From Acutalibacter sp. 1XD8-36 (lineage in GTDB: Bacteria; Bacillota; Clostridia; Oscillospirales; Acutalibacteraceae), in NCBI RefSeq assembly GCF_009917525.1, contig NZ_QZDU01000001.1:434001-498000 (forward strand): 64,000 bases of DNA, read 5' to 3'. A model generated the notes under the pieces. The model saw only the letters and a list, made by a program, of their open reading frames with translations, was not told the DNA's origin and ran no database searches. Positions within the stretch are counted from its first letter, which is position 1, and every line of letters starts with the position of its first letter. The position numbers were made by a program, and so were the translations under genes. This document shows, piece after piece, positions 36,412 to 48,603 of this stretch.

Positions 36412-37839
36412 TTAGCTCTCCATTATCTGTTTGTACAGCTTGATATACTCGCCCGCCGAGCGGCCCCAGCTGTTGTCACAGTTCATAGCCCGGTCTACCA
36501 GCACGCCCCAGCCCTTTTTGTCGGAGTTATAGGCGTAGATGGCACGGTGCAGGCTGTGTAGCATATCGCCCGCGTTATAGGTCATGAACGTGAAGCCGTT
36601 GCCCTCGCCGTCGCCACTGTCTGTGATGGAGTCCTTTAGGCCGCCGGTCTCACGGACCACCGGTATAGTTCCATAGCGCAGGGCTATCATCTGAGACAGG
36701 CCGCAGGGCTCGGACTTGCTGGGCATGAGGAAGATGTCGGCTCCGGCGTATATCTTCCTTGAAAGCTCAGGCACAAAGCCCAGGCAGAGCACGAAGCGTC
36801 CTGGGTACTTCTCCTGCATCCACTTGAAGTAGTTCTCATACTCCAGGTCCCCGCTGCCTAGAATAACTATCTGTGCGTTGGAGTATTCCATAACATTGTC
36901 CACAGCATCCTTCACTAGGTCAAGGCCCTTATGGGACACAAGGCGGGTGACCATGCCTATCAGCGGCACCTCAGGGTCTACCTCAATGCACAGGCGCTCC
37001 TGCAGCTTCTTCTTGTTTACCGCCTTATTCGCCTTGTCCTCTTTGCTGTAGTTTGCGAAAAGGTCTTTGTCGGTCTCGGGGTCGTAGCCCACTGTATCTA
37101 TACCGTTTAATATGCCGGACAGCTTCCAGGAGCGCTCCTTGAGGATGGGGTCCAGCTTATGGGAGAACCATGGGTCCAGAATCTCCTGGGCGTATGTTGG
37201 GCTGACAGTCGATACCCAGTTGGCGCACTCGATAGCACCCTTCATCAGGTTTACATCCTTATTGAACTCCAGGAGCTGGCTCTCGTAGGCCGGAATGCCG
37301 AAGACATCCTCAAGGATATCCTTGCCGTACTGCCCCTGATACTGGATGTTGTGGATGGTAAATAGTGTCTTAATGCCGGAGTACCAGTCGTTATTGGCAT
37401 AGAAGAGCCTGTAATACACAGGCACCAGTGCGCACTGCCAATCGTTGGCATGTATCACGTCGGGCTTATAGTCGATATAGGGCAGCATCTCCAAAACGGC
37501 CCTTGAGAAGAAGGCAAAGCGCTCCGCGTCGTCAAAGTGGCCGTAGAGACTGCCGCGCTTGAAGTAATACTGGTTATCTATGAGATAATAGGTCACAGCG
37601 CCTATTTTGGCCTCAAAAATGCCGCAATACTGCCGCCGCCAGGCCACGGGCACGGAAATGCTCGTGACGAACTTCATCTTGTCCCGCAGCTCCTGGGATA
37701 CGTTATCATACAGCGGCACCACCACCCGGCAGCCCACCATCCTGGCCCGCAAAGCCTGGGGCAGCGAGCCGGACACGTCCGCCAGTCCTCCTGTTGCGGA
37801 GAATGGCAGGGCCTCACTTGCACAATACAAAATCTTCAT
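36412..37839 (-). CDS. glgA: Glycogen synthase
   Basis: GT5 retaining glucosyltransferase that extends alpha-1,4-glucan from ADP-glucose. The 475 residues show the N-terminal ASEALPFSATGGLADVSGSLP (7-27); the usual Lys of KTGGL is replaced by Ala here, as in some Clostridia. Later: VIHANDW near 136, FTIHNIQYQGQYG near 170 and the C-terminal donor site DIFLMPSKSEPCGLSQMIALRYGTIPVVRETGGLKD (about 362-397) with E and C contacts. Last gene of glgBCDA; 40 bases after glgD. AAAGGAAC precedes the start. Confidence 0.95.
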   Translation of the reverse strand: MKILYCASEALPFSATGGLADVSGSLPQALRARMVGCRVVVPLYDNVSQELRDKMKFVTSISVPVAWRRQYCGIFEAKIGAVTYYLIDNQYYFKRGSLYGHFDDAERFAFFSRAVLEMLPYIDYKPDVIHANDWQCALVPVYYRLFYANNDWYSGIKTLFTIHNIQYQGQYGKDILEDVFGIPAYESQLLEFNKDVNLMKGAIECANWVSTVSPTYAQEILDPWFSHKLDPILKERSWKLSGILNGIDTVGYDPETDKDLFANYSKEDKANKAVNKKKLQERLCIEVDPEVPLIGMVTRLVSHKGLDLVKDAVDNVMEYSNAQIVILGSGDLEYENYFKWMQEKYPGRFVLCLGFVPELSRKIYAGADIFLMPSKSEPCGLSQMIALRYGTIPVVRETGGLKDSITDSGDGEGNGFTFMTYNAGDMLHSLHRAIYAYNSDKKGWGVLVDRAMNCDNSWGRSAGEYIKLYKQIMES

Positions 37840-46679: not shown

Positions 46680-47162
46680 CTATACCCTCCCCGCAAGCTT
46701 TGGGTAGGGCCGCTTTCTCTTGAAGAACTCATACACCGAGCAGCCCTTATCCACCAGTGTGACTACCGCGCCCTCACGATACTTTGGGGGACGGGGTGTC
46801 AGTGGAAACATGTGGGTACGTATTATGTCCGCCTCAATGCCTGTGAGCTCCAGCTCCTTCGAGGCGTTGCGCCAGGCTATGTCAGGGTGGCGGGACCAGT
46901 GCTTTTTATGGGCAGGGTCGCCGTCCTGGGCGTCATAGAAGAAGTAGTCGTGAAAAAGGGCTCCCCTTGTCATATCCCGCATATGGAACCTTCCGCCCAG
47001 CAGTGCCGCCAGACGGCAGCTATAATATGCAACAGCCACGCTGTGCAGCAGCCGGCAGGTATTCCCATGCTGAGGGTATCCAGCCATGCTCCCCAAATTG
47101 GAGCCGCTGATAAGGTCGGTGTAGTGACGCCAGAAAGCGTCGGAGTCCCAGTGTTTTGCCAT
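46680..47162 (-). CDS. HD-domain protein
   Basis: A 160-residue cytoplasmic protein of the HD metal-dependent phosphohydrolase superfamily. The metal motif HD is in RGALFHDYFFYD (H71-D72 region), with an upstream His in LLHSVAVAYYSC and later HPD and DIIRTHMFPL. The substrate is unknown. It is monocistronic, with its own promoter and terminator. Confidence 0.75.
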   Translation of the reverse strand: MAKHWDSDAFWRHYTDLISGSNLGSMAGYPQHGNTCRLLHSVAVAYYSCRLAALLGGRFHMRDMTRGALFHDYFFYDAQDGDPAHKKHWSRHPDIAWRNASKELELTGIEADIIRTHMFPLTPRPPKYREGAVVTLVDKGCSVYEFFKRKRPYPKLAGRV

Positions 47163-47259: not shown

Positions 47260-47837
47260 TGAGAAAGGTCCCCGGTAGCGACCCGGGGACCTCTTATTTA
47301 TCGATGAAGTTTAACACTTTCTGTGAACTTTTCAAAGAACACTCAACAGCCCATTGGTATATCTTCCTTTTCCGGCATATCTGTACTAATCCATCCGCCC
47401 GCATTTTTATTTTTGATTCGCTTTGTTAAGCTATGTAATTTGCGGAACCCGATTAGGTCTATGCCTGCTGGTCATTGCGGGACTTTAATATGTCCAACTA
47501 TATATTGACCTGCCTTTCTTATGTTCTGTTGTTTGGGGCTTCATCTATATTCATTTGCGGGCCACGAGCCCGCCGTGCTGTGATTCGATACTGTTGTCCA
47601 TTGGACTCGCCCGCCTTTCCGTCAATGATTTTGCCGCCTTACTGGCTGCCGCCTGCATCCGGCCTTATCTTTCACTCCATCCTGGAGCTACCTGCCGGTC
47701 TTTTCTTTTGCCCTGCGGCTGATTTCCTCTCCCCACCGTTTTCACTGAGCTTTTGGGCTTTACCATTTACAGCTCGCTACTTCCGATCCATCCGGCCTGC
47801 AACTGACTTGAAGATTTTGTATATCTTCTTTTGTTGT
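47260..47837 (-). ncRNA. Candidate large structured RNA of about 570 nt, family unknown
   Basis: A gene-free locus with a perfect promoter (47844-47872) and a strong hairpin at its end (47266-47292). The minus strand is rich in A-loops and short GC stems, as in structured RNA. Stems I can place: 47810-47815 with 47823-47828; 47675-47679 with 47683-47687; 47596-47599 with 47603-47606; 47557-47562 with 47568-47573; 47470-47474 with 47506-47510, enclosing 47480-47483 with 47492-47495. The longest open frames are on the wrong strand and have no ribosome site. It is not RNase P RNA, tmRNA or SRP RNA: their conserved cores are absent. The length is that of ornate large RNAs such as ROOL or OLE, but I cannot confirm a match. 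Confidence 0.6.
47266..47292 (-). terminator. Terminator hairpin of the large RNA
   Basis: A 10-bp stem AGGTCCCCGG (complement of 47283-47292) with CCGGGGACCT (complement of 47266-47275), loop of 7, followed on the minus strand by TTTCTCATTTGC. The U tract is imperfect. Confidence 0.65.
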
Positions 47838-47843
47838 GGCTTA

Positions 47844-47872
47844 ATTATACACCGTCCTCACGGATTTGTCAA
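47844..47872 (-). promoter_or_regulatory. Perfect consensus promoter of the large RNA
   Basis: Minus strand TTGACA (47867-47872), 17-base spacer, TATAAT (47844-47849). Both hexamers and the spacing are ideal, the strongest promoter in the window; no coding sequence lies downstream for 675 bases. Confidence 0.85.
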
Positions 47873-48038: not shown

Positions 48039-48338
48039 TTGGATACTGGATTTGAAGCAGACCTCATCACCCTCATAGACGACGAGGGCCAGGAGCATGA
48101 GTTTGAAATTATTGACGAGTTGGAGACTGACGACGGCCACTTTATGGCTCTGGTCCCCACCCGGCAGGACCCTGAGGATATGGCCTCGGACGCCGAGACC
48201 TACTATATCTTCGAGGTCATAGAGGAGGACGGCGAAGAGCAGCTCCAGGAGCTTGAGGACGACGAGCTTTTGGATAGGCTGGCTGAAATCTTCGAGACCC
48301 GCTTCAACGAGGCCTATTACGACGAGCCTGAGGAGTAA
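48039..48338 (+). CDS. DUF1292 acidic small protein
   Basis: A 99-residue very acidic protein of the DUF1292 family, common in Firmicutes and of unknown function. It has the family order: LITLIDDEGQEHEFEIIDELE, then YYIFEVIEEDGEEQLQELEDDELLDRLAEIFETRF. It starts at TTG 48039, 8 bases after GGAAAGGAG. In many Firmicutes this gene lies near ruvX, which is not seen here. It is followed by a candidate 6S RNA on the same strand. Confidence 0.85.
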   Translation: MDTGFEADLITLIDDEGQEHEFEIIDELETDDGHFMALVPTRQDPEDMASDAETYYIFEVIEEDGEEQLQELEDDELLDRLAEIFETRFNEAYYDEPEE

Positions 48339-48396
48339 AGGCAAGCTCCTCACATCAACCTGCTTGATGCGCGAATTGTGCACATATAACCCTACA

Positions 48397-48603
48397 CTCA
48401 TCAATTAGGGAGCCCCCCTCCGCCTGCGGATTGCAGACCTCCCGGCCCGGCTTTGACCGCGGCTGGAAGAAGGGAGCGTGAACCATGCGGGAGGGCACCC
48501 ACCTGTTTCCTTTGTAGGCAGGTTATTGAGACGCACATTACGGTCAAGCGGGTTTTCTTGCAAACTAAAGCCCACCGTTCTCAGCTGAACGGCGGGCCTT
48601 TTT
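48397..48603 (+). ncRNA. ssrS: Candidate 6S RNA (SsrS)
   Basis: An untranslated stretch of about 205 bases with its own possible promoter (TTGATG 48364-48369, TATAAC 48385-48390, short 15-base spacer) and a good terminator. Paired elements: CTGC/GCAG at 48424-48436; CCTCCCG (48438-48444) with CGGGAGG (48488-48494), enclosing the bulged region; ACCTG (48501-48505) with CAGGT (48519-48523). The GTGAACCATGCGGGAGGGCA and CACCCACCTG stretches recall 6S RNAs of Clostridia, which bind RNA polymerase and mimic an open promoter. The assignment is from memory of that pattern, so moderate. The gene upstream is DUF1292; the minus-strand nucleoside hydrolase follows. Confidence 0.55.
48570..48603. terminator. 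Bidirectional terminator after the candidate 6S RNA
   Basis: GCCCACCGTTC (48570-48580) pairs with GAACGGCGGGC (48587-48597), one mismatch, then CTTTTT on the plus strand. From the minus strand it lies 16 bases past the nucleoside hydrolase stop and is followed by TTTAGTTT. Confidence 0.85.

Follow-up and report, generated by a model that had tools for sequence, protein, structure and literature searches.

A conserved, structured RNA of Oscillospirales that looks to be built around ribosome-binding sites

In Acutalibacter sp. 1XD8-36, a gap separates an HD-domain-like gene on the minus strand from the divergent gene of a DUF1292 protein. What, if anything, is made from this gap? A preliminary description of the window (the whole 64-kb stretch of DNA analysed) had read it as an orphan, noncoding RNA with a perfect promoter, perhaps a divergent ROOL. 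Relatives, covariation and a search of Rfam agree in pointing to a discrete, conserved and structured RNA without an Rfam match, as had been supposed. The reading as an orphan noncoding RNA has to be given up: relatives occur within the order, and a short ORF and a micro-ORF are likely to be translated.

The locus and its predicted transcript

The promoter TTGACA-17-TATAAT on the minus strand is the sole exact match within the window, and none was found in 100 shuffles, which bears out the earlier claim of a perfect promoter. A promoter with TTGACA was present at the equivalent position in all 14 intergenic regions compared first. The features of the locus are collected in Table 1.

The strong closing hairpin proposed at the other end is real, with 10 pairs counted; its role is less clear, as a pattern scan calls it terminator-like on the plus strand only. 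The T-run that follows it on the minus strand of the window is poor (CCTTTCTCATTT). G017, the closest relative, has a T-run just as poor, and the other relatives mostly have TTTT or longer. Because of the poor T-run and the listing of the hairpin for the plus strand only, the 3' end of the transcript is a prediction. The HD-domain-like gene downstream has a promoter-like site of its own at 47225-47197.

Table 1. Features of the RNA locus and its neighbours (positions within the window)
Feature	Position	Strand	Basis or remark
Sigma-A-type promoter, TTGACA-17-TATAAT	47844..47872	-	Exact match; kept in relatives
Predicted transcript, ~575 nt	47260..47837	-	Both ends deduced from promoter and hairpin
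5' hairpin, GAAGAU...AUCUUC	47810..47828	-	MFE and centroid
Shine-Dalgarno module, GAAAGGCGGGCGAGTCCA	47602..47619	-	16S-tail duplex -11.6 kcal/mol; nearly invariant in genus
ORF1, ATG to TGA, 16 codons, putative product MDNSIESQHGGLVARK	47551..47601	-	Conserved; start, stop and motif signs
Hairpin at ORF1 3' end, GCGGGC/GCCCGC, stop codon just behind	47557..47573	-	Covariation, stop position
Helix P1, 5' strand GGCAU	47461..47465	-	Compensatory changes
Helix P2, 5' strand UCCGCA	47441..47446	-	Compensatory changes
Hairpin P3, GCUU-AACA-AAGC	47420..47431	-	In 18/18 rows of alignment, little variation
Helix P2, 3' strand UGCGGG	47398..47403	-	Compensatory changes
Helix P1, 3' strand AUGCC	47374..47378	-	Compensatory changes
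Second Shine-Dalgarno, GAAAAGGAAG	47363..47372	-	-6.2 kcal/mol, modest
Micro-ORF ATG GGC TGT TGA (MGC), three codons	47343..47354	-	Behind second Shine-Dalgarno
Terminator-like hairpin, 3' end of predicted RNA	47266..47292	-	Pattern scan; poor T-run in window
Downstream neighbour, HD-domain-like gene	46680..47162	-	20 bits (Pfam cut-off 22)
Divergent neighbour gene, DUF1292	48039..48338	+	Pfam PF06949, E 1.4e-15; also adjoins RNA in other genera

Rfam contains models of ROOL, OLE and GOLLD. A search of the RNA stretch with Rfam 15 gave no match at the gathering score. Up to E = 10 it gave weak hits only, which we take as chance and among which none of ROOL, GOLLD, OLE or the raiA motif was present; each of these four was rejected at both thresholds. 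RNase P RNA and tmRNA, had they been missed here, were likewise rejected, the standard gene of each being found elsewhere in the genome, over cut-off. No description of the RNA was found in the open-access literature searched. ROOL is described from phages and prophages, near tRNA islands (PMC12286853). In the window, tRNAs lie only at 1913 and 12960. BLAST against phage and plasmid collections returned nothing similar to the RNA, and the exact core motif had 0 matches in viral contigs. Together with the conserved chromosomal site described below, these results argue against a divergent ROOL, and the Rfam search argues equally against OLE and GOLLD.

Two repeats had also been pointed out. The decamer GAAGATATAC, placed near both ends, is present at 47819-47828, and its second copy is at 47357-47366, three bases from the place given for it. 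It is not a conserved repeat, because at least one copy is changed in each of the three nearest relatives; the window has a third copy at 36748-36757 on the minus strand. As claimed, the stretch has three copies of CGGATG; the total for the window, 18, is below the shuffle mean of 34.

Distribution and chromosomal site

With the stretch as BLAST query, 22 of 60 related genomes gave a match, the own genome among them; four matches are full-length (100, 92, 86 and 79% identity). Two kinds of weaker match were set aside: a second match in the own genome, on contig C54, arose by chance where another gene starts and is not a paralogue, and of the weak matches in six genomes outside the genus, the three inspected (G031, G052 and G057) covered only promoter-like sequence before tRNAs or ordinary genes.

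In the first 14 RNA-bearing loci, DUF1292 was present in 13, the HD gene in 11 and 6S RNA, by BLAST, in 13. In the window the 6S RNA gene (RF00013, 61.7 bits) is at 48354-48558 on the plus strand, on the far side of DUF1292, which is thus flanked by two RNA genes, 6S RNA and the new RNA. The DUF1292 protein is strikingly acidic, and the divergent place of its gene beside the RNA is kept across many genera.

Of 29 genomes of the genus, 21 gave one copy each at E <= 0.1 with a covariance model of the core (R1). The stretch beside DUF1292 was examined as a set chosen without regard to RNA similarity. A DUF1292 gene was found in 26 of the 29 genomes and the RNA core, by motif, in 22 of these 26. 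With G014, where the core was found by the RNA itself, it is present in 23 of 29, and the divergent DUF1292 gene adjoins the RNA in 22 of these 23. The DUF1292 site was not found in G003 and G015. In G024 the contig ends after the promoter and first block. Because G004, G009 and G016 keep the DUF1292 site without the core, the predicted RNA can apparently be lost.

In the GTDB species collection the exact core motif was found in 14 contigs, four of them titled as Acutalibacter, Neglectibacter or Neglecta, two as Ruminococcus (L051, from water-buffalo rumen, and L054) and eight without a specific name. The two Ruminococcus loci carry the RNA without the neighbour genes seen in the window.

Three models were run on larger sets, ten candidates being scored per genome and all resulting counts being lower bounds. 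R1 found at least five of 398 family genomes, all of the genus. R2, retrained with distant members, had matches in at least 70 of the 394 order genomes searched (E <= 0.01), three being genus members; chance alone would give ~4, as far as the rough E-values can be trusted. DUF1292 adjoins 12 of the 27 R2 loci examined outside the genus. Six of the 27 (L113-L115, L117, L118 and L121) were classed neither way, and L103 and L104 were rejected as family members, since they read as ordinary mRNA starts. In L104 (G540) the same Shine-Dalgarno (SD) start sequence precedes the gene of a short hydrophobic peptide, and the small genes that come next look, by eye, helix-turn-helix-like. R3, a sequence-only model, matched at least 43 of 398 family genomes at E <= 1e-4, in 21 of 135 genera, the own genus included. 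Against the class it matched at least 10 of 391 genomes: seven of this family, two elsewhere in the order and one, in another order (G1128), that is short and doubtful.

Checks were made on 25 family loci returned from outside the genus. All 25 have the SD-ATG-ORF1 core; R2 and R3 are built on ORF1, so that part of this similarity comes from the selection. Neither model includes DUF1292 or the promoter: DUF1292 is divergently upstream in 22 of the 25, and a TTGACA promoter-like site is present in 23. One locus, L149 (G098), has two ORF1 modules with MY micro-ORFs ~1.4 kb apart, as if the RNA had been duplicated in tandem, and paired model matches were also seen in G650, G708 and G735.

We conclude that a folded RNA of ~575 bases, conserved among relatives, is very probably made from the gene-free stretch. 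The predicted RNA is at a conserved chromosomal site, related bacteria of the order Oscillospirales carry predicted RNAs similar to it, and its status as a conserved gene is, by these sequence comparisons, well supported.

Helices, ORF1 and micro-ORFs

The MFE fold of the whole stretch has many local stems, in line with those counted earlier, and z = -3.20, with 0 of 100 shuffles as low. Without the 3' hairpin the energy is only moderately low (z = -2.01, 4 of 100 shuffles as low), and because of this drop folding energy alone is weak evidence. Covariation is the better structural evidence. Compensatory changes, for which the preliminary description had proposed a test on an alignment of homologues, were found when that test was run, and support three predicted helices.

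The covariation statistics that follow ignore kinship and, because related sequences are not independent, are not probabilities. Across 22 distinct sequences, double-sided changes fall on 8 of the 14 pairs formed by the ORF1-end hairpin and the SD-loop contact (6 of 10 and 2 of 4, respectively), with 22 double-changed cells against 7.4 in shuffles; 0 of 500 shuffles reached 22. In the 3' domain, 18 sequences show P1 as GGCAC/GUGCC, GGCAU/AUGCC, AGCAC/GUGCU and AGUAC/GUACU, together with two one-sided variants, and its score of 238 compares with a maximum of 225 in 1000 partner permutations. P2 takes many compensated forms in the same sequences. It was scored by the best local duplex that each of them can form, since the alignment loses register at this place, and its score of 247 exceeds the maximum of 500 permutations (244.5) by a small margin.

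RNAalifold chose a 12-bp helix that would hide the SD. This helix has 97.3% of its cells paired, a value reached by 115 of 500 shuffles, and 5 double-changed cells against 2.3 in shuffles (9 of 500 reach 5); in covariation it stands out little from shuffles. We prefer the local hairpin with a four-pair SD-loop contact as the probable structure. A general test of loop-to-SD pairing gave p < 0.05 in only 4 of 44 RNAs, and because of this failure sequestration of the SD is kept only as a possibility within the genus, where it is plausible but weak; outside the genus it has no support.

The statement that no credible gene lies here needs correction. A conserved ORF of 16 codons (ORF1), too short for ordinary gene calling, is present, and the most conserved block of the RNA, GAAAGGCGGGTGAGTCCAATGGA, consists of an SD and a start codon at proper spacing. 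The start is found at the same place in 25 RNAs (23 of the genus, L051 and L054), as ATG in 22, GTG in two and TTG in one, and opens ORFs of 16-24 codons; across the family ORF1 has 16-34 codons. Pairing of the SD with the 16S tail is worth -11.1 to -12.8 kcal/mol in all of the 25 but G002, where it is -8.5. Of the large ORFs of the window, 62 were compared at their best ATG, and seven equal or beat the value of ORF1.

The end of ORF1 is linked to the hairpin that overlaps it. Among the 23 RNAs in which this hairpin was recognised (all but G007 and G028), the frame in which it is read varies: 7 have it in frame 0, 15 in frame 1 and one in frame 2. A stop codon in the frame of the start follows 2-14 nt past the hairpin in 22 of the 23, and 26 nt past it in G006; in the other two frames a stop falls in this interval in 5 and 2 of 23. 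Near the N-terminus, an E-x(1-3)-Q motif is present in the coding frame of 44 of 59 ORFs (genus and order, 16-34 codons) and in the other frames of none, and its codons exchange synonymously (GAA/GAG, CAG/CAA). The C-terminal half of the peptide is not conserved. The interchange of start codons, the placement of stops in frame 0 and the E..Q motif make it likely that ORF1 is translated. G014, near-identical to G005, and G024, where the contig ends before the core, were left out of the ORF counts (module, E..Q and AUG-NNN-stop).

A second SD-start is found near the 3' end. At this site 16 of 23 genus RNAs, that of the window included, have an ORF of 2-4 codons, nine of them Met-Tyr; in five the second ORF has 8-21 codons, and two (G002 and G006) have none. 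L089 (G007) has four successive SD-ATG micro-ORFs of 2-3 codons (MD, MNQ, MN and MHN). The main module, GTGAGTCC-N-ATG with one mismatch allowed, occurs at 98 sites in 60 rows (L111 and L132 being one locus), against 0.019 per row in simple shuffles. Two to four sites are present in 24 of the 60 rows and in 0 of the 22 genus rows. Secondary sites number 39, or ~0.65 per RNA, and 27 of them open ORFs of 1-3 codons.

When the search was made independent of the module and asked for a start in C-N-ATG context with some SD, 24 of 57 RNAs gave a total of 31 AUG-NNN-stop sites; block shuffles gave 1.95 and the antisense strand 0. Met-Tyr-stop accounts for 17 of the 31; the Tyr codon is TAC in some and TAT in others, and each of the three stop codons is used. 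Because such sites give no product of any length, any use that they have would be expected in the binding of ribosomes and in initiation and termination themselves.

Interpretation and relation to known systems

The reading that we favour, with a probability of roughly one half, is a stand-alone, strongly promoted and structured dual-function RNA of Oscillospirales that works together with ribosomes. Ribosomes would initiate on ORF1, traverse the hairpin overlapping its 3' half, which translation would open, and stop directly behind it. On the micro-ORFs initiation would be followed almost at once by termination, and ribosomes would keep cycling on the RNA. Ribosome loading would hold the RNA open and protected from nucleases; ribosomes bound at the SD of a minigene are described as able to protect RNA (PMC8708949). 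Where initiation is scarce, the free RNA would fold. The RNA itself would have its function in trans and the ORF1 peptide would be a further product; DUF1292, as the conserved divergent neighbour, is the first candidate partner.

A wider proposal is put forward tentatively, as less likely than not: that these RNAs form a categorically new bacterial class in Oscillospirales, mostly beside DUF1292, whose functional units are ribosome-initiation modules and which serves as a sensor of translation initiation, a store for it or a brake on it. Each RNA would have at least one minimal ORF, often AUG-NNN-stop, besides a single hairpin-coupled ORF of 16-34 codons, and the minimal ORFs would keep ribosomes initiating and terminating on the folded scaffold.

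The competitor that survives best, unlikely as we judge it, is a plain small-protein mRNA, in which the ORF1 peptide is preceded by a long 5' leader and followed by a structured 3' part, and the RNA has no function in trans. The coding signs of ORF1 and an SD among the stronger ones of the window are what such an mRNA would have. A transcript of more than 500 nt for 16 codons, however, is hard to reconcile with it, as are compensatory helices outside ORF1, a poorly conserved C-terminus and ORFs of 1-4 codons that could hardly encode a notable product.

We give still less credence to a decoy, in which two-codon SD modules would sequester initiating ribosomes, or particular tRNAs through peptidyl-tRNA drop-off, and so brake translation. 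Minigenes are described as depleting tRNA, with toxicity stronger for strong SDs (PMC8708949), and the SDs with AUG-NNN-stop, the frequency of Tyr as last sense codon of the micro-ORFs and the four micro-ORFs of G007 would suit a decoy. Against this, secondary sites average only ~0.65 per RNA, and the window has a single micro-ORF behind a modest SD.

That the RNA is purely noncoding and ornate, of the ROOL, GOLLD or OLE kind, with SD-AUG as a structural motif that is never translated, is very improbable: it would account for the size, the strong promoter and the covariation, but not for stops that depend on frame, the exchange of ATG, GTG and TTG or an E..Q motif confined to frame 0, and Rfam gives no match to these families. 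A cis-regulatory leader of the HD gene, suggested by the position of that gene downstream on the same strand in the 11 loci mentioned, can hardly be correct, given the terminator-like hairpin in between, the promoter-like site of the HD gene and the different genes that, by eye, follow the RNA in L005 and L012. The least probable of all is a CsrB-like sponge for CsrA: CsrA has 3 matches in the genome of the window, and 16 of the 29 genus genomes have it, but ANGGA is not enriched in the RNAs of CsrA genomes (92 against 85.1 expected, 15 RNAs) or in those of genomes without a CsrA match (51 against 62.9, 8 RNAs), and eight genomes have the core and no CsrA match. Genus genomes with CsrA have up to five matches each.

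If the favoured reading of a dual-function RNA is right, gene callers and Rfam have until now missed a conserved RNA gene of animal-gut bacteria, gene callers because its ORF is too short and Rfam for want of a model. Minimal ORFs would be in use outside leader regions, in a free-standing RNA, a situation of which we know no description. The RNA would offer a compact, testable system for the mutual control of ribosome loading and RNA folding, and a link to DUF1292, a domain of unknown function in Pfam, would become testable.

The RNA looks like an undescribed family built around ribosome-binding sites, and it can be set beside several known systems. ROOL, GOLLD and OLE are, like it, large structured bacterial RNAs, and GOLLD reportedly binds ribosomes in pull-downs (PMC12286853). 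The new RNA differs from all three in matching none of their models, in occupying a conserved chromosomal site rather than a phage and in carrying an ORF with coding signs. The odc1 uORF motif shares with it an SD within RNA structure and a short conserved ORF; as described, odc1 sits directly before a main ORF that it is thought to control (PMC8632094), whereas the new RNA has no main ORF before the 3' hairpin. Extended SDs have been described in Staphylococcus aureus (PMC13009471).

Minigenes and two-codon mini-ORFs, such as those of axe-txe and LEE1 (PMC8708949), share AUG-NNN-stop behind an SD, and the sequence of the window likewise has an AUG, a few codons and a stop behind an SD. In that account the axe-txe and LEE1 minigenes are in the leaders of larger genes. 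The RNA of the window has no larger cistron before the 3' hairpin, and outside the genus its putative micro-ORFs, unlike the minigenes described there, can be repeated.

Dual-function RNAs are the nearest kind. In RNAIII/hld, a regulatory RNA and a short ORF are on one transcript. To our knowledge, micro-ORFs of 1-4 codons are not part of RNAIII/hld, SR1/SR1P or VcdRP/VcdP. The window RNA also differs from these RNAs in having no sequence relation to them by Rfam and no known base-pairing target. SR1/SR1P is described as a dual-function RNA (PMC8501984), as is VcdRP/VcdP, in which VcdP has 29 aa (PMC8672173). The likeness lies in the arrangement: as in these RNAs, a putative regulatory RNA and a short ORF, which has coding signatures and stands in a stand-alone RNA, would share one transcript.
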